Part shown: in pieces, positions 26,564 through 41,337 of the stretch
Position numbering within the stretch: the stretch's first letter is position 1
How the letters are laid out: each line of letters opens with the position of its first letter
Assembly: GCF_000720765.1 (NCBI RefSeq)
Contig: NZ_JODC01000019.1
Coordinates: forward strand, 1 to 64,000
Direction of reading: 5' to 3'
Length of the DNA: 64,000 bases
Source: Streptomyces sp. NRRL S-646
Lineage (GTDB): Bacteria > Actinomycetota > Actinomycetes > Streptomycetales > Streptomycetaceae
Translations under genes and position numbers: made by a program
The notes under the pieces: model-generated
Databases searched by the model: none
Told to the model about the DNA's origin: nothing
The model's input: the letters and a program-made list of their open reading frames with translations, nothing else

Positions 26564-26698
26564 TCAGACCCGGGCGGCAGGCGGGGCGTGGAGAAGTTCT
26601 GAAGGGAGCTTGAACAAACGAAACCGCTTACCCGTACTTCACCCCGAACGCCGGCGCCGCGTTTGTAAACCCACTCCTGACCCAAGTGAGGCATCCGC

Positions 26699-27586
26699 AT
26701 GTCCAGGGCTCTTCCGAAGTACAACAAGCGTCGCGTCGCGATCATCGGCGGCGCTGCCGCGGTGGCGCTGTCCGGAGCGGTGATCGCCGGTTCCGCCCTC
26801 GCCGGGACGCCGTCCAAGAGCAGCGGGAACAACGCCCGGACCCTGGCCGCGTCCCCCGGCACCATCACCTGCCAGGACGTCGCCTCCAAGCTCCCGGCGA
26901 TCCCCGCCTCCGCACAGGCCGAGGTCACCCGGAACCTCACGCTGCTGCAGACACAGATCCAGGAGGCCAACAAGCGGCTGGTCGACACGGTCGGCCAGGG
27001 CGGCCCGAACTTCGTGAACAACGCCATCCTGGGGCCCCTCAAGGACAAGCGGGTGGCCACGATCAACCGCATCGCCACCGCCATCGGGCGTACGGCGGCC
27101 AAGCCGACCGGCCTGGACTCGCTGGCGCCGTGCACCCTGAACGCCGGCGGCGCGAACACCGGTGCCAACAAGGGCGCCAACAACGGAAACGCCGGCAAGG
27201 GCAAGGCCGGCTCCGGGGCCGCCGCGAACAACGCGAACTCGGGCGCCTCCACCGCGGCCGGCGGTCAGGCGGCCGGCACCGCCGCCTCCGCAGCCGGCAC
27301 CATCACCTGCCCGGACGTCGCCTCCAAGCTCCCGGCGATCCCCGCCTCCGCACAGGCCGAGGTCACCCGGAACCTCACCCTGCTGCAGACACAGATCCAG
27401 GAGGCCAACAACCGGCTGCAGAGCACGGTCGGCCAGGGCGGCCCGAACTTCGTGCAGAACGCGATCCTCGGCCCGCTGGCCGACAAGCGGAAGTCGACCA
27501 TCGACCGCATCGCGATCTCCATCGGCCGCACCTCCGCCAAGCCCACCGGCCTGGACTCCCTGGCCGCCTGCACTCTCACCAAGTAA
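26699..27586 (+). CDS. Secreted protein with a duplicated ~90-aa domain
   Basis: Unrecognised exported protein. A basic N terminus and hydrophobic segment (VAIIGGAAAVALSGAVIAGSALA, about 13-35) form a signal peptide. Two copies of one domain, about residues 53-150 and 199-293, share TITC-DVASKLPAIPASAQ, a helix LLQTQIQEAN and the final PTGLDSLA-CTL; each has two Cys that could form a disulfide. A Gly/Ala/Asn-rich linker joins them. The DNA of the first ~110 bp of each copy is nearly identical. The ATG is at 26699. No enzyme motif is visible. Confidence 0.85.
   Translation: MSRALPKYNKRRVAIIGGAAAVALSGAVIAGSALAGTPSKSSGNNARTLAASPGTITCQDVASKLPAIPASAQAEVTRNLTLLQTQIQEANKRLVDTVGQGGPNFVNNAILGPLKDKRVATINRIATAIGRTAAKPTGLDSLAPCTLNAGGANTGANKGANNGNAGKGKAGSGAAANNANSGASTAAGGQAAGTAASAAGTITCPDVASKLPAIPASAQAEVTRNLTLLQTQIQEANNRLQSTVGQGGPNFVQNAILGPLADKRKSTIDRIAISIGRTSAKPTGLDSLAACTLTK
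26861..27580 (+). repeat. Internal gene duplication, 438-bp offset
   Basis: 26861-27140 and 27299-27580 are related copies. The first 110 or so bases of each differ at only two positions, while the remainder has diverged substantially at both DNA and protein level, suggesting partial gene conversion. Confidence 0.85.
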
Positions 27587-28385: not shown

Positions 28386-29096
28386 ATGCGATCAGCTCTT
28401 GCCGCCGGCGCTCTGGTGTCCGCCTCGCTCCTGGTCCTCGGTGCCGTGCCGGCCGCGTCGGCCTCCGGTACGCCTCTTCCCGCCCGGATGGCCGACACGG
28501 GCGGCGGTTCGCAGCTGATCACCGCCGTGGCCCCGAAGACGGGCTCGACGACCGGCACGGTCATCTGGTGGGACCTGGTCCACGGCCATTGGGTGGAGGC
28601 CGGTTCGGCGTCCGCGCGGTTCGGGGCGAAGGGGCTCGTGGAGGGGGTGTCGCGGAAGCAGAACACGAACACGACTCCGACCGGGCTGTACGACCTGCCG
28701 TACGCCTTCGGCATCAAGGCCGCGCCGGGCGGGACGCTCTACAAGTACCGTCCCGTGCACCGGAGTTCGTGGTGGTGCGAGGACACCGCCTCCCGCTCCT
28801 ACAACCGTTGGACCGAGCCGCGGCCCTCCGACTGCCGGGCGTCGGAGTCGGAACACCTGGCGTCCTACGGGACGCAGTACGCGTATGCGCTCGTCATCGG
28901 GTTCAACTACCACGAGAGAGTGCGCGGTCGCGGGGCCGGAATCTTCCTGCATGTCAACGGGCGTGGGGCAACGGCCGGTTGTGTGTCCGTCCCTCGTGAC
29001 GCGATGCGGAAGATCCTCACGTGGGTGCACCCGTGGACCGAGCCGCACATCGCGATCGGGACGACGAGCGGGAGTACGGCGATCACGCGGTACTGA
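28386..29096 (+). CDS. Secreted L,D-transpeptidase-like protein (YkuD fold)
   Basis: Probable exported cell-wall enzyme. The signal peptide covers about residues 1-27 (LVSASLLVLGAVPAASASG). The YkuD-like motif is at about 195-210: H in IFLHVNGRGATAGCVSVP with the active-site Cys; the usual SHGC is TAGC here, a variant seen in Streptomyces. The ATG is at 28386, three bases after the PNPOx gene. Its 3' end overlaps the convergent histidine kinase gene by 14 bp. Confidence 0.83.
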   Translation: MRSALAAGALVSASLLVLGAVPAASASGTPLPARMADTGGGSQLITAVAPKTGSTTGTVIWWDLVHGHWVEAGSASARFGAKGLVEGVSRKQNTNTTPTGLYDLPYAFGIKAAPGGTLYKYRPVHRSSWWCEDTASRSYNRWTEPRPSDCRASESEHLASYGTQYAYALVIGFNYHERVRGRGAGIFLHVNGRGATAGCVSVPRDAMRKILTWVHPWTEPHIAIGTTSGSTAITRY

Positions 29097-30543
29097 GCCA
29101 TACGGTGAACGTGGTCGACCCCGGCCTGCTCTCCAGCTCCACGCTCCCCCCGTGCGCCTCCGCGACCGCCGCCACGATGGACAGGCCCAGGCCCGCGCCC
29201 CCGCCGGGGGCGTCCTTGCGGCGGCGGTGTTCGGCCCGGGTGAAGCGTTCGAAGACGCCCGGCCGGATGTCTTCGGGGACGCCCGGGCCGTCGTCGTGGA
29301 CCTTGAGGACGGCCGAGGGGCCGTCGGTCTCCAGCGACACCGTCACCTTGGTGCCGACCGGTGTGTGCAGACGCGCGTTGGCCAGCAGGTTGGCCAGTAC
29401 CTGGTGCAGGCGGTGCTCGTCGCCGGTGACCGTGACCGGTTCCTCGGGGAGCTCCAGGGTCCAGCGGTGGCCGGGGCCGGCGGCGCGGGCGTCGGTGACG
29501 GCGTCGAGGACCAGGCGGGTCAGGTCGACGGGGAGGCGTTCGAGGGGGCGGCCCGCGTCCAGGCGGGCCAGCAGCAGGAGGTCGTCCACCATCGCGCCCA
29601 TGCGGCCCGACTCGGCGGCGATGCGTTCGAGGGCGCGGGTGACCTCCGGCGGCACCGGGCCGGGGTGGAGGAGGGCCAGTTCCGCGTGGCCGCGGACCGA
29701 GGCGACCGGGGTGCGCAGTTCGTGGCTGGCGTCGGCCGCGAAGCTGCGCAGCCGCTCCTCGCTGGCATGTCGTTTGGTCAGGGCGTCCTCGACATGGCCG
29801 AGCATGCGGTTGAAGGCGCCCGCGACCCGGCCCACCTCGCTGCGCGGGTCGGACTCGGGGGCGCGCGGCGGCAGGGCCACCTCGCCGCTGGCGAGCGGGA
29901 GTTCGCTGACCCGGGTGGCGGTCGCGGCGACCCGGCTCAGCGGCCTGAGCGACCAGCGCACCCAGAGGGCGCCCGCGACGCCGGTGAGGGTGAGGGCGGC
30001 GCCGAAGACGATCCCGGCGACCAGTTCGAGGCGGTGGACGGTGGCCTCCACGGGCTCCAGGGGCAGCCCGGTGATCAGGACGTCGCCGTCGAGGCCCTTG
30101 GACGCGGTCACCCGGTAGCCGTCCAGGGTGGAGAGCCGGACGCTGTGGCCCCTGCCGTCGACCGGGACCGCGGCGAGCTGCCCGGTGTCCCTGGCCGTCA
30201 GCGTGACGTCGACGACTCCGCCGGTCCGGATGACCGCGGCGTTGGTGGCCGAGCCGTCGACCAGGCGGGCGCCGAAGGTGCCGGCGGCCTGTCTGCGGTC
30301 GTCGCCGTGTTCGTCGCCGTCGTGATCGTCGGGGAGCTTGCCCCCGTGTTCCAGGCTGGCGGCGAACCGGGGCCCGACCTGGCCGAGCTGCTCGTCGAGG
30401 CGGCTGGTAAGGAAGCCGTTCAGCTCGATCACGGCGGCAAGCCCGACCGCCGCGCAGCTGACGGCCAGCAGCACCACCAGGCCGACGGTGAGCCTGGCCC
30501 GGAGCGTCCGTGGCCGGGGCAGCCGCCGCCACTGCACCCTCAT
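29083..30543 (-). CDS. Membrane sensor histidine kinase of an OmpR-type two-component system
   Basis: Autophosphorylates and passes phosphate to the adjacent regulator. TM1 at about 18-40, an extracellular sensor loop of about 140 residues, TM2 at about 178-200, HAMP, H-box SHELRTPVAS near residue 270, N-box NLLANARLHT near 384, and G-boxes DDGPGVP and GGGAGLGLSI. The sensor loop has a His/Asp-rich stretch near residues 65-85 (DDHDGDEHGDDRR), which may bind metal. ATG 30543 overlaps the regulator stop (ATGA). Divergent from the ferric-reductase operon, its likely target. Confidence 0.93.
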   Translation of the reverse strand: MRVQWRRLPRPRTLRARLTVGLVVLLAVSCAAVGLAAVIELNGFLTSRLDEQLGQVGPRFAASLEHGGKLPDDHDGDEHGDDRRQAAGTFGARLVDGSATNAAVIRTGGVVDVTLTARDTGQLAAVPVDGRGHSVRLSTLDGYRVTASKGLDGDVLITGLPLEPVEATVHRLELVAGIVFGAALTLTGVAGALWVRWSLRPLSRVAATATRVSELPLASGEVALPPRAPESDPRSEVGRVAGAFNRMLGHVEDALTKRHASEERLRSFAADASHELRTPVASVRGHAELALLHPGPVPPEVTRALERIAAESGRMGAMVDDLLLLARLDAGRPLERLPVDLTRLVLDAVTDARAAGPGHRWTLELPEEPVTVTGDEHRLHQVLANLLANARLHTPVGTKVTVSLETDGPSAVLKVHDDGPGVPEDIRPGVFERFTRAEHRRRKDAPGGGAGLGLSIVAAVAEAHGGSVELESRPGSTTFTVWLSTA

Positions 30544-31280
30544 GACGCCACCGGCTTGAGCACGTACCCGGCCCCCCGCACGGTGTGGATCATCGGCTCG
30601 CGGCCCGCGTCCACCTTCTTGCGCAGGTAGGAGATGTACAGCTCGACGACGTGGGCGCGGCCGCCGAAGTCGTAGGACCAGACCCGGTCGAGGATCTGTG
30701 CCTTGCTGAGCACGCGGCGCGGGTTGCGCATCAGGAAGCGGAGCAGCTCGAACTCGGTCGGGGACAGCTCGATCAGCTCGCCGGCCCGGGTGACCTCGCG
30801 GGAGTCCTCGTCCATGACCAGGTCGCCGACGGTCAGCCGCGGGCCCTCGTCCAGCTGCCGGGCCATGCCGGCGCGACGCAGCAGCCCGCGGACCCGGGCG
30901 ACGACCTCCTCCAGGCTGAAGGGTTTGGTGACGTAGTCGTCGCCGCCCGCCGTGATGCCCGCGATGCGGTCCTCCACCGCGTCCCGTGCGGTGAGGAAGA
31001 GGACGCACACGTCGGGCTTCACGGTGTGCAGGGAGCGCAGCACGGCGAAGCCGTCGGTGTCGGGCAGCATCACGTCCAGCACGACGGCGTCCGGCATCAG
31101 CTCCCGCGCCTCGGCCAGCGCGGAGGCGCCGTCGCCGGCCGAGCGGACCTGCCAGCCCTCGTAGCGCAGGGCACCCGAGAGCACCTCGGCCAGGTCGGGG
31201 TCGTCGTCGACGACCAGGACGCGCAGCGGAGTGCCGTCGGGGCGGGTGAGGGCGGGGCGGCCGGAGCGGGTGGTGTTCAT
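30540..31280 (-). CDS. OmpR/PhoB-family response regulator
   Basis: DNA-binding partner of the following kinase. Receiver domain about 19-135, with acidic pocket DDD (25-27), phosphoacceptor Asp near 69 (LDVMLPDTDG), T in FLTARD and K in TKPF. The C-terminal winged helix reads ELSPTEFELLRFLMRNP and VVELYISYLRKKVD. 246 aa including an N-terminal extension before RVLVVDDD. ATG at 31280; the gene overlaps the kinase by four bases. 11-bp-spaced direct repeats upstream may be its sites. Confidence 0.94.
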   Translation of the reverse strand: MNTTRSGRPALTRPDGTPLRVLVVDDDPDLAEVLSGALRYEGWQVRSAGDGASALAEARELMPDAVVLDVMLPDTDGFAVLRSLHTVKPDVCVLFLTARDAVEDRIAGITAGGDDYVTKPFSLEEVVARVRGLLRRAGMARQLDEGPRLTVGDLVMDEDSREVTRAGELIELSPTEFELLRFLMRNPRRVLSKAQILDRVWSYDFGGRAHVVELYISYLRKKVDAGREPMIHTVRGAGYVLKPVAS

Positions 31281-31328
31281 CGCCCTACCAGGATCACCCC
31301 TCGCCGGGTCGGCAGGCCGTCCGCGATG

Positions 31329-31383
31329 CTCTGAGTTTCCTCTGAGTGGGCTCAGAGGGTGCTGGTTGAGAGCGTGCTGAGAG
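31329..31383. promoter_or_regulatory. Candidate OmpR-type operator between divergent units
   Basis: CTGAG at 31331 and 31342, then TTGAG at 31366 and CTGAG at 31377, give two pairs of direct repeats, each 11 bp apart (one helical turn), with an inverted CTCAGAG at 31351. The region lies between the response regulator start (31280) and the reductase start (31431). Confidence 0.5.
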
Positions 31384-31430
31384 GTTGCGGCGGCACAGTT
31401 GCGTCCGGATACAGGCGAAAGGACGCACAC

Positions 31431-32783
31431 ATGACCACCGTGTACGAGCGGCGGACGGCACCGGCCGTGGCGCCGGCCGCGCGGCGCTCCCCCGCGGGCC
31501 CCGTGCTCGCCCTGCTGTGGGCAGGGGCGGCGGCCGTGGTCGCCCTGTGGTGGACGGACACCGGGTCGGTGGTCGGCACGGCCGGCTGGCTGACCGGGGC
31601 CGGGCGGATCGCCGGGCTGCTGTGCGGGTACGCCTGCGCGGTCCTGGTCGGGCTGATGGCGCGGGTGCCGCTGCTGGAGCGGCGGATCGGTTCGGACCGG
31701 GTGGCCCGCTGGCATGCGATGGCCGGCCGCTACACGGTGTGCCTGCTGGTCGCGCACCTCGTGCTGATCCTCCTCGGGTACGCCGCCCAGGACCGCGCAT
31801 CGGTGTGGCACGAGACGCTCACCGTGGTCCTGGACTACCCGGACATGCTCAAGGCCACCTTCGGCACGGTCATCCTGTTCGCGGTCGGCATCACCTCGGC
31901 GCGCGCCGCGCGCCGTCGGCTCAGCCACGAGTTCTGGTACTACGTCCACCTGCTCACGTACGTGGCCGTGTTCCTGGCCTTCTTCCACCAGCTGACGCTG
32001 GGCAACGAGTTGAGCGGCCACACCGCGGCCACGGCGGCCTGGTACGTGCTGTACCTCGGTGTCGCGGCCCTGGTCCTGTGGTTCCGGGTCCTGGTCCCGC
32101 TGCGGCTCAACCTGCGGCACCGGCTGCGGGTGGAGTCGGTGCACAAGGAGGCGCCGGGCGTGTACTCCGTCGTCGTACGGGGTGAGCGGCTGGACGAACT
32201 GGGCGCGCTGGCCGGGCAGTTCTTCCGCTGGCGGTTCCTCGGCGAGGGCATGGGGTGGACGTCGACGCCGTACTCGCTGTCGGCGACGCCCCGCCAGGAT
32301 CTGATGCGGATCACGGTCAAGGCGCTGGGCGACCACAGCGCGGCCGTCGCGCTGCTGCGGCCGGGCACCCGGGTGTGGGCGGAGGGCCCGTACGGGTCGC
32401 TGACCCAGGACCGGCAGACCGCGCAGAAGTCCCTGCTGATCGCGGGCGGCGTCGGCATCACACCGCTGCGGGCGCTGTTCGAGACGCTGCCCGGCGACGT
32501 CACCCTTCTCTACCGGGCGCGCACCGCCGAAGACCTGGCCCTGGGCGGGGAGTTGGAGGCCATCGCCCGCTGGCGCGGAGCCAAGGTGCTGTATGCGCTC
32601 AACGGGCCGGACGGGCGGCGCCCCAGCCTCACCGCCCAGTCCCTGCGCGCGTCCTTCCCCGACCTCGCGGGCCACGACGTCTACATCTGCGGCCCGCACG
32701 GCTTCGCCCGCGAGCTGTACGAGGCGCTGCGCACCGCGGGTGTGCCGGACCGCCGTATCCACCACGAGTCGTTCGAGCTGTGA
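31431..32783 (+). CDS. Ferric-reductase-like transmembrane heme/flavin oxidoreductase, module 1
   Basis: Would carry electrons from cytosolic NAD(P)H across the membrane. The N-terminal half (about 20-220) is a ferric-reductase-like domain of about six helices with candidate heme His in RWHAMAGRYTVCLLVAHL and YYVHLLTY/FFHQL. The C-terminal half is a ferredoxin reductase-type domain: FAD motif TPYSLSATP, NAD motif AGGVGITPLRALFETL and end YICGPHGF...HHESFEL. ATG 31431 follows AAAGGA. First gene of the flavin operon; its acceptor is probably the next gene product. The physiological substrate is unknown. Confidence 0.9.
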   Translation: MTTVYERRTAPAVAPAARRSPAGPVLALLWAGAAAVVALWWTDTGSVVGTAGWLTGAGRIAGLLCGYACAVLVGLMARVPLLERRIGSDRVARWHAMAGRYTVCLLVAHLVLILLGYAAQDRASVWHETLTVVLDYPDMLKATFGTVILFAVGITSARAARRRLSHEFWYYVHLLTYVAVFLAFFHQLTLGNELSGHTAATAAWYVLYLGVAALVLWFRVLVPLRLNLRHRLRVESVHKEAPGVYSVVVRGERLDELGALAGQFFRWRFLGEGMGWTSTPYSLSATPRQDLMRITVKALGDHSAAVALLRPGTRVWAEGPYGSLTQDRQTAQKSLLIAGGVGITPLRALFETLPGDVTLLYRARTAEDLALGGELEAIARWRGAKVLYALNGPDGRRPSLTAQSLRASFPDLAGHDVYICGPHGFARELYEALRTAGVPDRRIHHESFEL

Positions 32784-32793
32784 GGCGGTAGAA

Positions 32794-33261
32794 GTGCACG
32801 CGTTGAAGAAGAACCGCCCGCTGCGCCGGATCGTGCTGGCGAGTGCCGCCACCGTCTCCGGGATGGTGCTGCTGCTCTCCCTGAAGCCGCACTCGACACC
32901 GGACGTGGGCCTGGCCGTGCCCGCGCCGTCCAGCAGCTCCAGTTCGGGCACGTCCGGCGGCTCCGGAGGATCGACCACCACCGTCACCAAGACGGTCACC
33001 GGGGACACGATCCAGACCCGCTGGGGCCCGGTCCAGGTGAAGATCACCGTCAAGAGCGGCAAGCTCACCGAGGTGACCGCCGTGCAGTATCCGACGGACA
33101 ACCCCCGGGACCAGGAGATCAACAGCTTCGCCCTCCCCCGGCTGCGCAGCGAGGCGCTGCAGGCCCAGAGCGCGGACATCGACACCGTCTCCGGGGCCAC
33201 GTACACAAGTGACGGTTACCGCCAGTCACTCCAGTCCGCACTGGACTCGGCACGCGGCTGA
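32794..33261 (+). CDS. Membrane-anchored single FMN-binding domain protein
   Basis: Extracytoplasmic electron carrier. A basic N terminus and one hydrophobic helix (IVLASAATVSGMVLLLSL, about 14-31) anchor it; a Ser/Gly linker leads to one FMN-binding domain. The ApbE target motif DTVSGATYTSDGY is near residues 129-141, where the Thr after the AT/Y is the expected FMN attachment point. GTG at 32794, ten bases after the reductase stop; TTG at 32803 is an alternative. Homologous to the double-domain protein at 34750. Confidence 0.87.
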   Translation: MHALKKNRPLRRIVLASAATVSGMVLLLSLKPHSTPDVGLAVPAPSSSSSSGTSGGSGGSTTTVTKTVTGDTIQTRWGPVQVKITVKSGKLTEVTAVQYPTDNPRDQEINSFALPRLRSEALQAQSADIDTVSGATYTSDGYRQSLQSALDSARG

Positions 33262-33336
33262 ACACACCGGCGTCGCGGCACGTATTCCTGGGCCAAGGGA
33301 CCACGACAGCCCCCTTGCCCCCGCGACGGAGGAACA

Positions 33337-34719
33337 GTGACCACCACGCTCGCAGGCGGCCGCGCCGCCCGCCGCCAGACGATGCGCCGCATCCGCCCGC
33401 GCCGCTCCCCGGCGACCGTCCTGCTGCTCGCCGTATGGGCGGGCGCGGTCGCCGTGCTGTGGCTGTGGTGGCACAACACGCCGTCCATCGCCGACCAGAA
33501 CGGCAAGATCCTCAACGCGGGCCGGATCACCGGTCTGCTGGCCGGTTACCTGATGGCTCTCGTGGTGCTGCAGATGGCCCGGGTGCCCGCTCTCGAACGG
33601 CGCGTCGGCTCCGACCGGGTGGCGCGCTGGCACGCGATGAGCGGCCGCTACACGCTCTGCCTGGTCTTCGCGCATGTCTTCCTCATCATGTGGGGCTACG
33701 CGCTGCAGGCGGGCAAGTCGCTCGGCGACATCGTCCAGCAGACGATCGACTCCATCAACCAGCTGCCGGACATGGGCAAGGCGGCCATCGGCACCGCTCT
33801 GTTCGTGCTCATCGGACTGACGTCGATCGGCCCGGTGCGGCGCAGGATCCCGTACGACACCTGGTACCACGTCCATCTGCTGACGTACGGGGCCGTGTTC
33901 CTGACGTTCTGGCACCAGATCACCACCGGCAACGACTTCGCCGTCGAGCCGGCCGCGAAGACCTTCTGGTACGCCCTGTACGGGTCGGTCACCGCGCTGG
34001 TCGTCTGGTACCGCATCCTCACGCCGATCCGCCTGAACATGCGGCACCGCATGCGCGTCGAGGCGGTCATCGAGGAGACCCCGGGCATCGTGTCTGTGCT
34101 GATCGGCGGGCGCAAGCTGCACCGGATGGGCGCCGAGGCGGGGCAGTTCTTCCGGTGGCGGTTCCTCGCGCCGGGCATGCGGTTCTCCTCCCACCCGTAC
34201 TCGCTGTCGGCGGCGCCCCGCCCCGACATGCTGCGGATCACCGTCAAGGCGATCGGTGACCACAGCGCCCGGCTGCGCGAGCTGACGCCCGGCACCAAGG
34301 TGTGGGCCGAGGGTCCGTACGGCGCGATGACCGCCCAGCGGCGCAGCCGCGGCAAGGTGCTGCTGGTCGCGGGCGGCGTCGGCATCACGCCGATGCGGGC
34401 GCTGTTCGAGACACTGCCGGGTGCCTCCGGCGACATCACGCTCCTGTACCGGGCCAACACCACGCAGGACCTGGCCCTCTGGGACGAGCTCGCCGCCATC
34501 GCCGACGACCGCGGCGCCCGGCTGATGTACGCGGTCAACAGCCCGGACGGGGAGCGCCCGGACATCTCGGCGGAGCGGCTGCGGCAGAAGCTGCCGGACA
34601 TCGAACAGCACGACGTCTTCATGTGCGGGCCGGCCGGCTTCGCGCAGGGCGTGTACGAAGCACTGCGCGGCGCGGGAGTGCCCGCCCGCCGCATCCATCA
34701 CGAGTCGTTCGAGATGTGA
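33337..34719 (+). CDS. Ferric-reductase-like transmembrane heme/flavin oxidoreductase, module 2
   Basis: Paralogue of the 31431 gene with the same layout: about six helices with His in RWHAMSGRYTLCLVFAHV and YHVHLLTY/FWHQI, then FAD motif HPYSLSAAP, NAD motif AGGVGITPMRALFETL and end MCGPAGF...HHESFEM. GTG at 33337 directly follows GGAGGAACA. The close likeness, including the shared ERR-GSDRVARWHAM loop, indicates duplication of a reductase/FMN-protein pair. Probable partner is the double FMN protein downstream. Confidence 0.9.
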   Translation: MTTTLAGGRAARRQTMRRIRPRRSPATVLLLAVWAGAVAVLWLWWHNTPSIADQNGKILNAGRITGLLAGYLMALVVLQMARVPALERRVGSDRVARWHAMSGRYTLCLVFAHVFLIMWGYALQAGKSLGDIVQQTIDSINQLPDMGKAAIGTALFVLIGLTSIGPVRRRIPYDTWYHVHLLTYGAVFLTFWHQITTGNDFAVEPAAKTFWYALYGSVTALVVWYRILTPIRLNMRHRMRVEAVIEETPGIVSVLIGGRKLHRMGAEAGQFFRWRFLAPGMRFSSHPYSLSAAPRPDMLRITVKAIGDHSARLRELTPGTKVWAEGPYGAMTAQRRSRGKVLLVAGGVGITPMRALFETLPGASGDITLLYRANTTQDLALWDELAAIADDRGARLMYAVNSPDGERPDISAERLRQKLPDIEQHDVFMCGPAGFAQGVYEALRGAGVPARRIHHESFEM

Positions 34720-34749
34720 GCGACGGGACTTCAGGAGCTCAGGAAAGCG

Positions 34750-35568
34750 ATGAAGAAGAGTCACCCCATCCGGCGTGTCGTGCTGGCCACCGCCGCCACC
34801 GTGTCGGGCGTCGTACTGCTGCTGTCGCTGAAACCGGCGTCCGACCCGAACGCCCAGGCGGCCGGTGCGGCCCCGCAGCAGACCTCGGCCGCACAGGAGT
34901 CGCCCCAGGGCGGCACCGCGGGAGCCGGTAGCGGCACGGTCGACGGCAACGTGGCCCAGACCCAGTACGGCAACGTCCAGGTCCGGCTGACGGTCAGCAA
35001 CGGCAAGATCACCAAGGCCGAGGCGATCCAGGCGCCCAAGGGCGGCACCAGCGACCAGAAGACCGCCCTCTCCATACCCAAGCTGACCAAGGAGACGGTC
35101 ACCGCGCAGAGCGCGCAGATCGACACGGTCTCCGGGGCGACGTACACCAGCAACGGCTACAAGCAGTCGCTGCAGTCGGCCATCGACAAGATGAAGGCGA
35201 GCGCGGGCTCTTCGCAGGGCAGCGGCTCCTCGCAGAGCAGCGGCGCGGGCTCCTCGTCCGGCAACTCCCAGGGCTCGGGCTCGGGGAGCACCCAGGCCAA
35301 GACCGTCACCGGCAGTGTCGCGCAGACCCAGTACGGGCCGGTCCAGGTCCGGATCACCGTCAGCAACGGCAAGATCACCAAGGCCGACGCGGTGCAGGCA
35401 CCCAAGGGCGGGCTCAGCGACCAGAAGACGGCGATGGCCATCCCCAAGCTCAACCAGGAGGCGGTGGCGGCCGGCAGCGCGAAGATCGACGCGGTGTCGG
35501 GTGCCACGTACACGAGCAGCGGCTATATGCAGTCGCTGCAGTCGGCACTGGACCAGGCCGGTGGCTGA
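34750..35568 (+). CDS. Membrane-anchored protein with two FMN-binding domains
   Basis: Extracytoplasmic multi-flavin carrier. An N-terminal anchor helix (VVLATAATVSGVVLLLSL) is followed by FMN-binding domain 1 (about 60-145), a Ser/Gly/Gln linker and FMN-binding domain 2 (about 188-272). Flavinylation motifs are DTVSGATYTSNGY and DAVSGATYTSSGY. The two domains are near-repeats (NVAQTQYGNVQV/SVAQTQYGPVQV, VSNGKITKA, ETVTAQSAQ/EAVAAGSAK). The ATG is at 34750. ApbE begins within its last codons. Confidence 0.9.
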   Translation: MKKSHPIRRVVLATAATVSGVVLLLSLKPASDPNAQAAGAAPQQTSAAQESPQGGTAGAGSGTVDGNVAQTQYGNVQVRLTVSNGKITKAEAIQAPKGGTSDQKTALSIPKLTKETVTAQSAQIDTVSGATYTSNGYKQSLQSAIDKMKASAGSSQGSGSSQSSGAGSSSGNSQGSGSGSTQAKTVTGSVAQTQYGPVQVRITVSNGKITKADAVQAPKGGLSDQKTAMAIPKLNQEAVAAGSAKIDAVSGATYTSSGYMQSLQSALDQAGG

Positions 35569-36364
35569 GTCGGTGGCCGAGTCGGCAGAAGCTCCCGCCG
35601 CGGTGCGTCATGCGGAGGAGGTCATGGGGACCGTCTTCTCCTTCGACGTCCGCGGCGGGGAGCCCGGTGCGGTGCAGGCGGCGCTGGAGGAGGCGATCGC
35701 CGGACTGCACCGGGTGAACGAGGTGTTCAGCACGTACCGCGACAACAGCCAGGTCTCCCGGCTGGCTCGGGGCGAGCTGACCGTGGAGCAGTGCGCGCCC
35801 GAGGTCGCCGAGGTGCTCGCACTGGGTGCCGAGGCGGAACGGGTGAGCGACGGCTGGTTCAGCATGCGCTACGAAGGGCGGCTGGATCCGACCGGCATCG
35901 TCAAGGGCTGGGCCGCCGAGCGCGCGGCCCGGCTGCTCGCGGCCACCCCCGGCGTGAGCGGGGTGAGCATGAACGGCGGCGGGGACGTCCAGCTGCTCGG
36001 CATGCCCGAACCGCACCGGCCCTGGCGGGTCGGGGTGGCGGACCCGCTGCGTCCTGGCGGGCTCGCTGCGGTCGTCTCCGCGGCCGGCGCGGACGAGCTG
36101 GCGGTGGCCACCTCCGGCACCGCCGAGCGGGGCGCCCACATCGTCGACCCGCGCACGGGCCGCTCCGCGGTGACCGACCTGGTGGCGGTGACCGTGGTGG
36201 CCCCGAAGCTGACCTGGGCGGACTGCTGGGCCACGGCGGCCTTCGCCATGGGCTCGAACCAGGGCCTGCGCTGGCTGGAGTCCCTGCCGGACGTGGAAGC
36301 ACTGCTGATCACGGCGGGCGACGAGGTGAGATGCACAGGGGGCCTCGCATCTCGGCTCGGGTGA
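35561..36364 (+). CDS. apbE: FAD:protein FMN transferase ApbE
   Basis: Transfers FMN from FAD to a Thr of SGATYT-type motifs, releasing AMP; Mg-dependent. Family motifs: EVMGTVFSFD near residue 20, the DPTGIVKGWA block, VSMNGGGDVQLLG, ATSGTAERGAHIVDPRTG and the final WADCWATAAFAMG with the metal Asp. There is no signal peptide, so it may act in the cytosol, or its export is not visible. GTG at 35561 overlaps the upstream stop by eight bases; GTG at 35573 is possible. The operon position makes the adjacent FMN proteins its targets. Confidence 0.93.
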   Translation: MAESVAESAEAPAAVRHAEEVMGTVFSFDVRGGEPGAVQAALEEAIAGLHRVNEVFSTYRDNSQVSRLARGELTVEQCAPEVAEVLALGAEAERVSDGWFSMRYEGRLDPTGIVKGWAAERAARLLAATPGVSGVSMNGGGDVQLLGMPEPHRPWRVGVADPLRPGGLAAVVSAAGADELAVATSGTAERGAHIVDPRTGRSAVTDLVAVTVVAPKLTWADCWATAAFAMGSNQGLRWLESLPDVEALLITAGDEVRCTGGLASRLG

Positions 36365-36367
36365 GCA

Positions 36368-36428
36368 CAGCGCCCCTCCAGGGGCGCGGGGCTGTGTCGA
36401 TTTGCGGCTCCGCCGCGTGGGCGCGACC
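36368..36428. repeat. Dispersed two-hairpin element, copy 2
   Basis: cagcgcccctccaggggcgcggggctgtgtcgatttgcggctccgccgcgtgggcgcgacc-type element (begins cagcgcccctccaggggcgc). It sits between the convergent apbE and argR stops and has hairpins gcgcccc/ggggcgc and gcggc/gccgc. Probable bidirectional terminator. Confidence 0.85.
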
Positions 36429-36467
36429 CCCACGACCCGCAGGCGGCAAACGACCGCAAGCCCCGCT

Positions 36468-37007
36468 TCAGTGGCCGTTCTGAGCCAACCTCAGCATGTG
36501 CTCAGCAAGCGCCTGCCCACCCGCCGGATCCCGGCTGATCAGCATCAGCGTGTCATCACCCGCGATCGTCCCGAGAATGTCGTGCAACTCGGCCTGGTCG
36601 ATCGCCGAGGCGAGGAACTGTGCCGCCCCCGGAGGCGTACGCAGAACAACGAGATTCGCCGACGCCTCGGCGGAAATCAGCAGCTCCTGCGACAGCCGCC
36701 GCATCCGCTCCTCCTTCGCCGACTCGCCCAGCGGCGCCCGGGGGGTCCGGAAACCCCCCTCGCTCGGCACCGCATAGATCAGATCGCCGTCGTTGTTGCG
36801 GATCTTCACCGCGTTCAGCTCGTCCAGGTCCCTGGAGAGCGTCGCCTGTGTGACGGTCAGCCCGTCGTCGGCGAGGAGCTTCGCCAACTGACTTTGGGAC
36901 CGCACCGGTTGCCGGTTGAGGATGTCCACGATCCGGCGGTGGCGTGCGGTGCGGGTCTGCGGCACGGCAGGCCCGGCGTGCTGTGCGTCGTCCTGCGCGT
37001 GACTCAT
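36468..37007 (-). CDS. argR: Arginine repressor ArgR
   Basis: Arginine-responsive hexameric repressor of the arg genes. The N-terminal winged helix has [20 protein letters not shown] and [19 protein letters not shown]; the C-terminal oligomerisation and arginine domain has [20 protein letters not shown] and [12 protein letters not shown] with the Asp pair that binds arginine. 179 aa is usual. It is the last gene of argCJBDR, seven bases after argD, and its targets are the ARG boxes upstream of argC and argG. Confidence 0.96.
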
Positions 37008-37014
37008 CGTCGTC

Positions 37015-38208
37015 TCATTCTCCGGATCCGTCCCCGTTGGCCTGGTCCAGGATGCCGGGGAGCGCCCGGAGGAACGCGTCCACCTCGTCGTCGCCGAGAG
37101 TCAGCGGCGGCATCAGCCGTACGACGTCGGGGGCGGGCGCGTTCACCAGGAATCCGGCCTCCTGAGCCGCCTGGCGCGCCTGGGGCGCGAGCGGCTCGGT
37201 GAGCACGATACCCAGGAGGAGGCCCGCGCCCCGGACATGGGCGATCAACGGGTGGCCCAGTGACTCGATTCCGTCCCGCAGCCTCTCGCTCTGCTGCTTG
37301 ACGTTCTCCAGCAACCCCTCGTTCGCGATCGTGTCCAGGACGGCGAGCCCGGCGGCGCAGGCGACCAGGTTGCCGCCGAAGGTCGTGCCGTGGTGCCCGG
37401 GCTGCAGCAGCTCGGCGGCCCGGCCGAAGGCGACGGTCGCGCCGAGCGGCAGTCCGCCGCCGAGACCCTTGGCGAGAGTGACGACGTCCGGCAGGACGCC
37501 CTCGTGGGCCTGGTACTCGAACCAGTGGCCGGTACGGCCGATTCCGGTCTGCACCTCGTCCAGGACCAGCAGCGCACCGGTCGCGGCGGTGATCGCACGG
37601 GCGGCCTTGAGGTAGCCGGCGGGCGGCACGACGACGCCGATCTCGCCCTGGATCGGCTCCAGGATGACCAGCGCGGTCTCCTCGGTGACCGCGGCCGCGA
37701 GCGCCTGCGCGTCGCCGAACGGCACATGCGTGACGTCACCCGGCAGCGGCAGGAACGGCTCCCGCTTGCCCTGCTGGCCGGTCATCGCGAGCGCACCCAT
37801 GGTGCGGCCGTGGAAGGCACCCTCGGTGGCGACGACGTGGGTACGCCCGGTCAGCCGGCCGATCTTGAAGGCGGCCTCGTTGGCCTCGGCGCCCGAGTTG
37901 CAGAAGAACACCCTGCCGTCCCGCCCGAACAGCTGCAGAAGCCGCTCTGCAAGGGTCACGGTGGGCTCGGACATGAAGAAGTTGGAGATGTGGCCGAGGG
38001 AGCCGATCTGCTTGCTGACGGCCTCGACGACCGCCGGGTGGGCGTGTCCGAGCGCGTTGACCGCGATGCCGCCGACGAAGTCGACGTACTGCTTGCCGTC
38101 GGCGTCCCACACCTTGGCGCCCTCGCCGCGTACCAGGGGCAGCAGCGGGGTGCCGTAGTTGTTCATGAGCGCGCCCTGCCACCGCGCGGTCAGTTCCTGG
38201 TTGCTCAC
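37015..38208 (-). CDS. argD: Acetylornithine aminotransferase
   Basis: PLP enzyme converting N-acetylglutamate semialdehyde to N-acetylornithine. Class III aminotransferase features: [18 protein letters not shown], the PLP contacts [14 protein letters not shown] and the Schiff-base Lys in [15 protein letters not shown]. 397 aa is typical. GTG at 38208 overlaps the argB stop by four bases (GTGA), so translation is coupled within the operon. Confidence 0.97.
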
Positions 38209-39115
38209 GACTCCCCCTGTACGTGCGGATTCTCGTCGGGCACGACCATCGTGCCGATGCCCTCGTCGGTGAAGATCTCCAGCAGGATCGAGTGCTGGAC
38301 CCGGCCGTCGATGACGCGGGCGGTGGTGACGCCGCCTCGGACGGCGTGCAGACAGCCCTCCATCTTCGGCACCATGCCGGAGCTCAACTCCGGCAGCAGC
38401 TTCTCCAGTTGGGAAGCGGTGAGGCGGCTGATCACCTCGTCGCTGTTCGGCCAGTCCTCGTAAAGGCCCTCGACGTCCGTGAGGACCATGAGGGTCTCGG
38501 CGCCCAGCGCAGCAGCGAGTGCCGCAGCCGCCGTATCGGCATTGACGTTGTAGACATGTCCGTCGTCCTGGCTACGGGCGATCGACGAGACGACCGGGAT
38601 GCGGCCGTCGGCGAGGAGTGCCTCGATCGCGCCCGTGTCGATCTCGGTGATCTCGCCCACCCGCCCGATGTCGACCAACTCGCCGTCGATCTCGGGCTGG
38701 TGCTTGGTGGCGGTGATGGTGTGCGCGTCCTCGCCGGTGAGGCCGACGGCGAGCGGGCCGTGCTGGTTGAGCAGCCCGACCAGCTCGCGCTGGACCTGCC
38801 CGGCGAGCACCATGCGTACGACGTCCATGGCGTCCTCGGTGGTGACGCGCAGTCCGGCCTTGAACTCGCTGACGATGCCGTGCTGGTCGAGGGCGGCGCT
38901 GATCTGCGGGCCGCCGCCGTGCACGACGACCGGCTTCAGGCCGGCGTGGTGCAGGAAGACGACGTCCTGCGCGAAGGCGGCCTTCAGGTCCTCGTCGATC
39001 ATGGCGTTGCCGCCGAACTTGATGACGACGGTCTTGCCGTTGTGCTTGACCAGCCAGGGCAGCGCCTCGATGAGGATCTGGGCCTTGGGGAGCGCGGTGT
39101 GTTTGCGAGTAGTGC

Positions 39116-39119
<4 letters not shown>
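38205..39119 (-). CDS. argB: Acetylglutamate kinase
   Basis: Phosphorylates N-acetylglutamate, the usual arginine-feedback step. Amino-acid kinase fold: [10 protein letters not shown] at the N terminus, [14 protein letters not shown] (substrate and phosphate loop), [24 protein letters not shown] and the C-terminal [13 protein letters not shown]. An N-terminal helix ([13 protein letters not shown]) like those in arginine-sensitive hexameric enzymes is present. ATG at 39119 overlaps the argJ stop (ATGA). Confidence 0.97.

Positions 39120-41337
<2,218 letters not shown>

Follow-up and report, generated by a model that had tools for sequence, protein, structure and literature searches.

A 64,000-nt stretch of DNA from Streptomyces sp. 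NRRL S-646 (the window) carries five contiguous genes on the forward strand (31431–36364) that encode two ferric-reductase-like flavocytochromes (FRE1 and FRE2), two flavin mononucleotide (FMN)-binding proteins (FMN1 and FMN2) and the flavin adenine dinucleotide (FAD):protein FMN transferase ApbE. Together with a divergent two-component system (TCS), these genes probably constitute a regulated system for electron export to the cell envelope. The basic kind of flavin electron-export system is already described; a sensor of its own and a flavin-attaching enzyme that seemingly stays inside the cell go beyond that kind. A preliminary description of this DNA had read the genes as one five-gene operon. 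The uninterrupted gene run, with spacings of 10, 75 and 30 nt and then an overlap between FMN2 and ApbE, is confirmed by coordinates and by Pfam profile searches at family cut-offs. The single plain unit did not hold: there are two modules with separate candidate regulatory sites, and the reading was incomplete, as the divergent histidine kinase and response regulator belong to the unit.

FRE2 (33337–34719), FMN2 (34750–35568) and ApbE (about 35561–36364) form the conserved core, and FRE1 (31431–32783) and FMN1 (32794–33261) are a sister duplicate that is almost always gained or lost together with the divergent TCS. Because the order FRE2–FMN2–ApbE is kept in 20/20 fetched Streptomyces loci (with about 1.5 kb between FRE2 and FMN2 in locus L053), the clustering is not chance. 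The preliminary description proposed a survey of genomes for co-occurrence of the five genes. Whereas the core is kept in all 20 loci, FRE1–FMN1 is found in 7 of them, and the kinase–regulator pair in exactly those 7 and in none of the other 13. FRE2 is 95–97% identical to its counterparts in two named Streptomyces genomes (L221 and L242). Directly after the flavin genes, on the opposite strand (36468–41274), are five arginine-biosynthesis-like genes, which, from their sequences, we take to be argR-argD-argB-argJ-argC; argR occurs within the same stretch in 18 of the 20 loci (one contig ends early and one locus has no detected argR). Among 16 named arg-type loci, a set that shares at least one record with the fetched loci (an 89,619-base S. 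blattellae contig, L041 = L233), 7 have FRE1–FMN1 with the TCS and 8 have neither; the exception, L232, has a second reductase, no TCS pair and no detected ApbE. One genome (G170, locus L064) carries a kinase–regulator–FRE1–FMN1 block at a great distance from the core, and the 14 kb retrieved for this block contain no ApbE. In the reductase tree, FRE1 (9 rows) and FRE2 (21 rows) form sister clades, which suggests that the FRE1 module arose by an old duplication within Streptomyces and was then repeatedly lost or transferred.

The assignment of both FRE1 (450 amino acids) and FRE2 (460 amino acids) as ferric-reductase-like flavoproteins is borne out: each has Ferric_reduct (PF01794; 61.6 and 69.6 bits, respectively, against a cut-off of 28) and NAD_binding_1 domains, with FAD_binding_8 listed for FRE2 only. 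When the bis-histidine pattern was checked in alignments, the pairs H99/H113 and H180/H193 (FRE2 numbering) were invariant in 12/12 and in 52/52 aligned sequences. A six-helix bis-heme core and an FAD/NAD dehydrogenase domain lie in one chain (FRE2 was modelled, FRE1 judged from its sequence). The closest solved fold to modelled FRE2 is SpNOX of Streptococcus pneumoniae, which shares the NADPH oxidase fold at about 19–20% identity.

FMN1 contains one FMN_bind stretch and FMN2 two, and the three expected SGATYT motifs are present, starting at residue 133 of FMN1 and at residues 128 and 250 of FMN2. All three match the flavinylation context [DN]xx[ST]G[AS]Tx[ST], as printed in PMC5928378, within FMN_bind domains. 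The second domain of FMN2 aligns with Protein Data Bank entry 8p2a over 88 residues (E = 3.5e-37), and FMN1 matches the same entry (E = 9.4e-26). We assume that 8p2a represents domain 2 of the S. azureus protein SaFMN3, given that 8p2b carries the label of a Clostridiaceae FMN4 domain and FMN4 accompanies SaFMN3 in PMC10339131. SaFMN3 is described there as carrying covalent FMN on Thr, with a midpoint potential of −184 mV and a reduced form that reacts with O2. SaFMN3 and FMN2 both contain several FMN domains, one of them very much alike in the two proteins, but SaFMN3 has three and FMN2 two; a putative flavin transferase gene flanks the SaFMN3 gene, and the main text of that paper contains neither 'operon' nor 'ferric'. 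Close Streptomyces orthologues of FMN2 have one to three FMN domains, and the copy in L038 appears frame-shifted. Conserved residues, the reductase fold and the similar solved FMN domain support the electron path proposed in the preliminary description, from NAD(P)H through FAD and heme to covalent FMN outside the membrane.

Both flavoproteins begin with a basic stretch and a hydrophobic segment, followed by a low-complexity linker of 39–40 residues and then the first domain. The hydrophobic segment is conserved class-wide (consensus r..pmRRavla.aaTvaGLVLLLsykp; mean top-residue frequency of 0.43, versus 0.62 in the FMN domain) and therefore fits a permanent membrane anchor. All 27 FMN1 and FMN2 proteins of the Streptomyces arg loci have an N-terminal hydropathy score of at least 1.98 and a twin arginine (RR). 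The two proteins in the window fit a loose TatP-like regular expression and would fail a stricter rule. Twin-arginine translocation (Tat) is no more than a candidate export route, because many relatives have KR or no such pair in place of RR.

Upstream of the core, the forward-strand site TGAAC-N17-CGTAT (33259–33285) resembles a promoter for an extracytoplasmic function (ECF) sigma factor; in the window, the FMN1 stop codon supplies its TGA. Among 21 regions upstream of Streptomyces FRE2 genes, 17 have an exact copy of the site and three a copy with one or two changes; L050 has none. Because the 75-nt gap between FMN1 and FRE2 holds this conserved promoter-like site, the five genes may form two overlapping transcription units; no sigma-70 promoters or terminators were detected in 31000–36600. 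The pattern occurs at 14 sites in this genome, versus none for the reversed pattern, and at 73 sites in six other species (4 for the control), preceding FRE2 in all six. Loosening it to three mismatches was uninformative (1,039 sites versus 831 in the control), and the sigma-E targets given in PMC6767563 have mostly CGTC rather than CGTAT. By Pfam, the other genes behind the motif in this genome encode secreted DUF1996 proteins, an aminotransferase, a trypsin-like protease and a peptidoglycan-binding protein. DUF1996 and aminotransferase genes also follow it in several other species (judged from matching N termini among 30 of the 73 sites), as does a solo FRE in genome G007 (L205). A cupredoxin-like lipoprotein behind the motif in this genome (L177:995–1432, reverse strand) is a candidate copper electron partner. 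Within the window, a near copy, TGAAC-N17-CGTAC (26611–26637), precedes a forward-strand gene (26699–27583) with a secreted-looking product that has no Pfam family above cut-off; the site was seen in 7 of 8 other Streptomyces loci examined.

The TCS comprises an OmpR-type response regulator (30540–31280, reverse strand), divergent from FRE1, and a sensor histidine kinase (29083–30543, reverse strand) with HAMP, HisKA and HATPase_c domains and one extracytoplasmic sensor segment; the kinase start, placed from sequence, overlaps the end of the regulator gene. The regulator is predicted to bind a candidate box at 31329–31357, CTCTGAG-TTTC-CTCTGAG-TGGG-CTCAGAG, which is built in 11-bp steps. With up to one mismatch, CTCTGAG-N4-CTCTGAG has this single match in the 10.7-Mb genome, and the reversed control has none. 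In arg-type loci (30001–32500 being the part of the window searched), the box is present at the same tolerance in 16/16 with the TCS (two are probably one record) and in 0/22 without it. ApbE matches occur in 37 plasmid records (7 from Streptomyces). Six of these plasmids were examined, and kinase–regulator pairs with FRE–FMN–ApbE were found in 3/3 from Streptomyces and 0/3 others; the box is exact on the S. decoyicus plasmid and has one mismatch on pSMg1-1 and two on the NBC_00467 plasmid. The seven best plasmid matches to the window regulator include all three regulators that adjoin FRE–FMN–ApbE. The uniqueness of the box and the joint cassettes on all three Streptomyces plasmids make the TCS look dedicated to the flavin system. 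In the rest of the class, a regulator and kinase lie within 2.6 kb of 20 of 57 trios (a count that leaves out 10 loci with a partial trio), compared with 1 of 13 reductases without FMN or ApbE; in the named set, a TCS lies within 1.2 kb of 20 of 40 trios, versus 1 of 21 such reductases for a TCS anywhere in the locus. Two layouts recur, one divergent and upstream, the other downstream on the same strand. Most Streptomyces copies of the sensor segment contain a D/H-rich stretch (DDHDGDEHGD) that is not kept outside the genus; a match to the heavy-metal sensor family TIGR01386 fell below the cut-off and was not used. The distant second FRE–FMN(×2)–ApbE trio of this genome (L061, G000:C10:303000–318000) lacks the box (four mismatches); it has its own divergent kinase and regulator, a BTAD-type regulator downstream and SGATIT instead of SGATYT. 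The literature searched yielded no report of a TCS beside such clusters, which does not prove absence.

ApbE (267 amino acids; assigned by Pfam and structural homologues) most likely has a GTG start codon at 35561, so that the gene overlaps the stop codon of FMN2; the protein has no N-terminal hydrophobic segment. This raises a question that the preliminary description overlooked, namely where the flavin is attached. Export signals were scored by hydropathy rather than with SignalP, in windows of 17 residues and with a threshold of 1.6 that we chose; the positive control, Escherichia coli Ftp, scored 1.97. A hydrophobic N terminus is missing from 80/80 testable class-wide ApbE frames (81 were scanned, one a fragment) and from 54/55 in a second, partly overlapping set of named frames, in which the hydrophobic part of the sole flagged protein (L266) lies upstream of its likely start. 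In nine class-wide frames an in-frame stop or the end of the sequence lies 15 codons or fewer from the core, too close for a signal to fit in between. Both ApbE genes that a Pfam search finds in this genome are signal-less. Plasmid ApbE proteins meant as signal-bearing controls also scored below 1.6 (Duffyella, 1.49; Mesorhizobium, 0.75; Deinococcus, 0.51), so ApbE proteins without a signal also occur outside Actinobacteria. The one on the Mesorhizobium plasmid (L302) is encoded next to an FMN-binding protein, a cytochrome b/b6 and an RnfD-like protein and poses a comparable compartment problem. EetB (PF07456), a subunit of the known FAD exporter, has no match in any of 41 Streptomyces or 197 class genomes, and 2 of 14 control genomes match.

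Two routes are set out in PMC9973259: loading of the cofactor in the cytosol with Tat export, or unfolded Sec export with cofactor supplied outside. Because ApbE is signal-less, its FMN-protein substrates have export segments and EetB was not found, our data, drawn from sequence, favour cytosolic flavin loading before export. We consider it unlikely, although worth weighing, that ApbE is exported non-classically or rides on Tat with its substrate, so that flavinylation would be extracytosolic as in Listeria. Most ApbE proteins seem to be secreted, and one early study needed periplasmic placement for function, but cytosolic ones, such as that of Klebsiella, exist too (PMC12052999), and the signal-less frames and the EetB result across 197 genomes speak against export. 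No report of a cytosolic ApbE with an exported substrate in Actinobacteria was found in the literature searched, and absence is not proven.

The preliminary description left the terminal acceptor in Streptomyces unassigned, and so do we. A census of 138 neighbouring proteins (of 150 listed) around named loci L236–L300, based on script-called genes and excluding proteins of more than 750 or fewer than 75 amino acids and the core and TCS genes, showed no clear partner enzyme: among the 25 of 153 families listed, ABC_tran has 6 members, TetR_N 4, several including LytR_cpsA_psr 3, and the last 2. We favour a small diffusible or metal acceptor over a fixed partner enzyme. The lack of a clearly recurring neighbour would also suit NADPH oxidases that pass electrons from the outer heme or FMN to O2, producing superoxide or peroxide for signalling, cross-linking or a defence burst, as would the nearest solved fold, SpNOX, which is titled an NADPH oxidase, and the reaction of reduced SaFMN3 with O2 (PMC10339131). 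One to three tethered covalent flavins would nevertheless be superfluous for a pure oxidase. Flavin autoxidation in vitro is common, and the O2 reaction may be a side reaction; overall we regard such an oxidase as rather improbable. We give no greater credence to an assimilatory metal reductase, in which Fe(III) or Cu(II) would be reduced so that it can be taken up. In favour of it are membership of the Ferric_reduct family, VIT1 in 153 of 1,797 such clusters (PMC8238504) and the cupredoxin lipoprotein behind the shared promoter motif. In our census VIT1 is outside the 25 families listed, the last of which have two members, so at most two of the 138 neighbours could carry it; no iron-box-like site in the three promoter or gap regions scanned outscored shuffled sequence (Rex, Zur and PhoP-type boxes did not either), and the cupredoxin is one case in one genome. 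Quite doubtful is a specific remote protein acceptor (a cupredoxin, a DUF1996 protein or a disulfide or methionine-sulfoxide reductase) co-regulated through TGAAC-N17-CGTAT. The motif does precede FRE2 in all six further species, as well as DUF1996, aminotransferase and solo FRE genes and the cupredoxin here, but the sites are short and not all promoters, physical linkage is absent and no cupredoxin lies behind the 30 of 73 sites compared in other species.

Among known systems, MsrPQ has the PF01794 heme domain in common with the reductases. MsrQ lacks an FAD/NAD module and serves MsrP, and no MsrP-like protein was found by Pfam among the cluster genes examined. The MsrQ-like flavinylation systems of Meheust et al. 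(2021, PMC8238504), which are broadly conserved in Actinobacteria, share a PF01794 six-helix heme protein, usually with the NAD-binding domain PF00175, an FMN_bind protein and ApbE, in keeping with the earlier statement that ApbE flavinylation beside ferric-reductase-like proteins is broadly reported. The window has PF01794 with bis-heme histidines, FMN_bind and ApbE within five genes, and export segments in FMN1 and FMN2 by hydropathy; the section of that paper on MsrQ-like systems is silent on a duplicated reductase–flavoprotein pair, a TCS or a missing ApbE signal. Listeria extracellular electron transfer (PplA, FmnB, EetB/FmnA) likewise uses covalent-FMN carriers outside the membrane, but its ApbE homologue, FmnB, is located outside the cytosol and it has an FAD exporter (PMC9973259), whereas here ApbE is signal-less, EetB was not found and hydropathy reveals no exported or lipoprotein ApbE of the Listeria/NQR type.

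For the regulated export system that we prefer, gene content, motifs, fold, conservation, linkage, box uniqueness and the missing ApbE signal are computed, and we infer from them an electron direction, functions for promoter and box, a flavinylation site and a type of acceptor. In each FRE, FAD would accept hydride from NAD(P)H in the cytosol, and electrons would then move one at a time across two b hemes to the outer side of the membrane. ApbE, acting on the cytosolic side before export, would link FMN to the last Thr of each SGATYT (Thr138 of FMN1, Thr133 and Thr255 of FMN2); the anchored FMN proteins would accept the electrons, carry them into the wall space on their low-complexity tethers and pass them to a small acceptor such as Fe(III), Cu(II), O2 or quinone. 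The core would be expressed from the ECF-like promoter, and FRE1–FMN1, dependent on the core ApbE, would be switched by the divergent kinase and regulator through the CTCTGAG direct repeats.

Several observations weigh against parts of this picture. The twin arginine is present in 53 of 84 non-redundant class-wide anchors and missing from the FMN proteins of the S. decoyicus and NBC_00467 plasmids; the motif is thus not universal, and the FMN proteins may be exported by Tat or by another route. The lack of EetB leaves room for another FAD exporter. The candidate promoter site, ECF-like by sequence, is exact in 11 of the 16 named arg-type loci and not in the other 5, and some of the pattern sites lie within coding sequence. 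Elsewhere, half to two thirds of trios have no TCS nearby, so a sensor is not essential to this kind of system, and the hidden Markov models used accept any OmpR-type pair, some linked pairs being distant. Cross-talk is also possible, because the closest paralogue of the regulator (L171, G000:C9, 6045–6860, reverse strand; 73% identical), which has no FRE or FMN linkage, groups next to the linked clade of 13 rows (82/84), both within a larger clade (99/97). L171 comes with a kinase and stands beside glycosyltransferase-like and large membrane protein genes, as read from frames.

Flavin-based electron export is widespread, but the literature covered seems to assign it neither a switch nor an acceptor nor an assembly route in Actinobacteria. 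Our tentative view is that across Actinomycetes a cytosolic ApbE loads FMN proteins before they are exported, folded through Tat or by another path, so that no FAD exporter is needed, and that the entire unit, its TCS included, acts in some lineages as a transferable cassette, turning on electron export at the surface in response to a change in envelope redox or metal conditions. The apparently dedicated sensor and unique DNA box offer a direct handle on the inducing signal, and hence on the acceptor. If true, flavin loading by a cytosolic ApbE, followed by export of the loaded proteins, would add a second way of supplying flavin outside the membrane.

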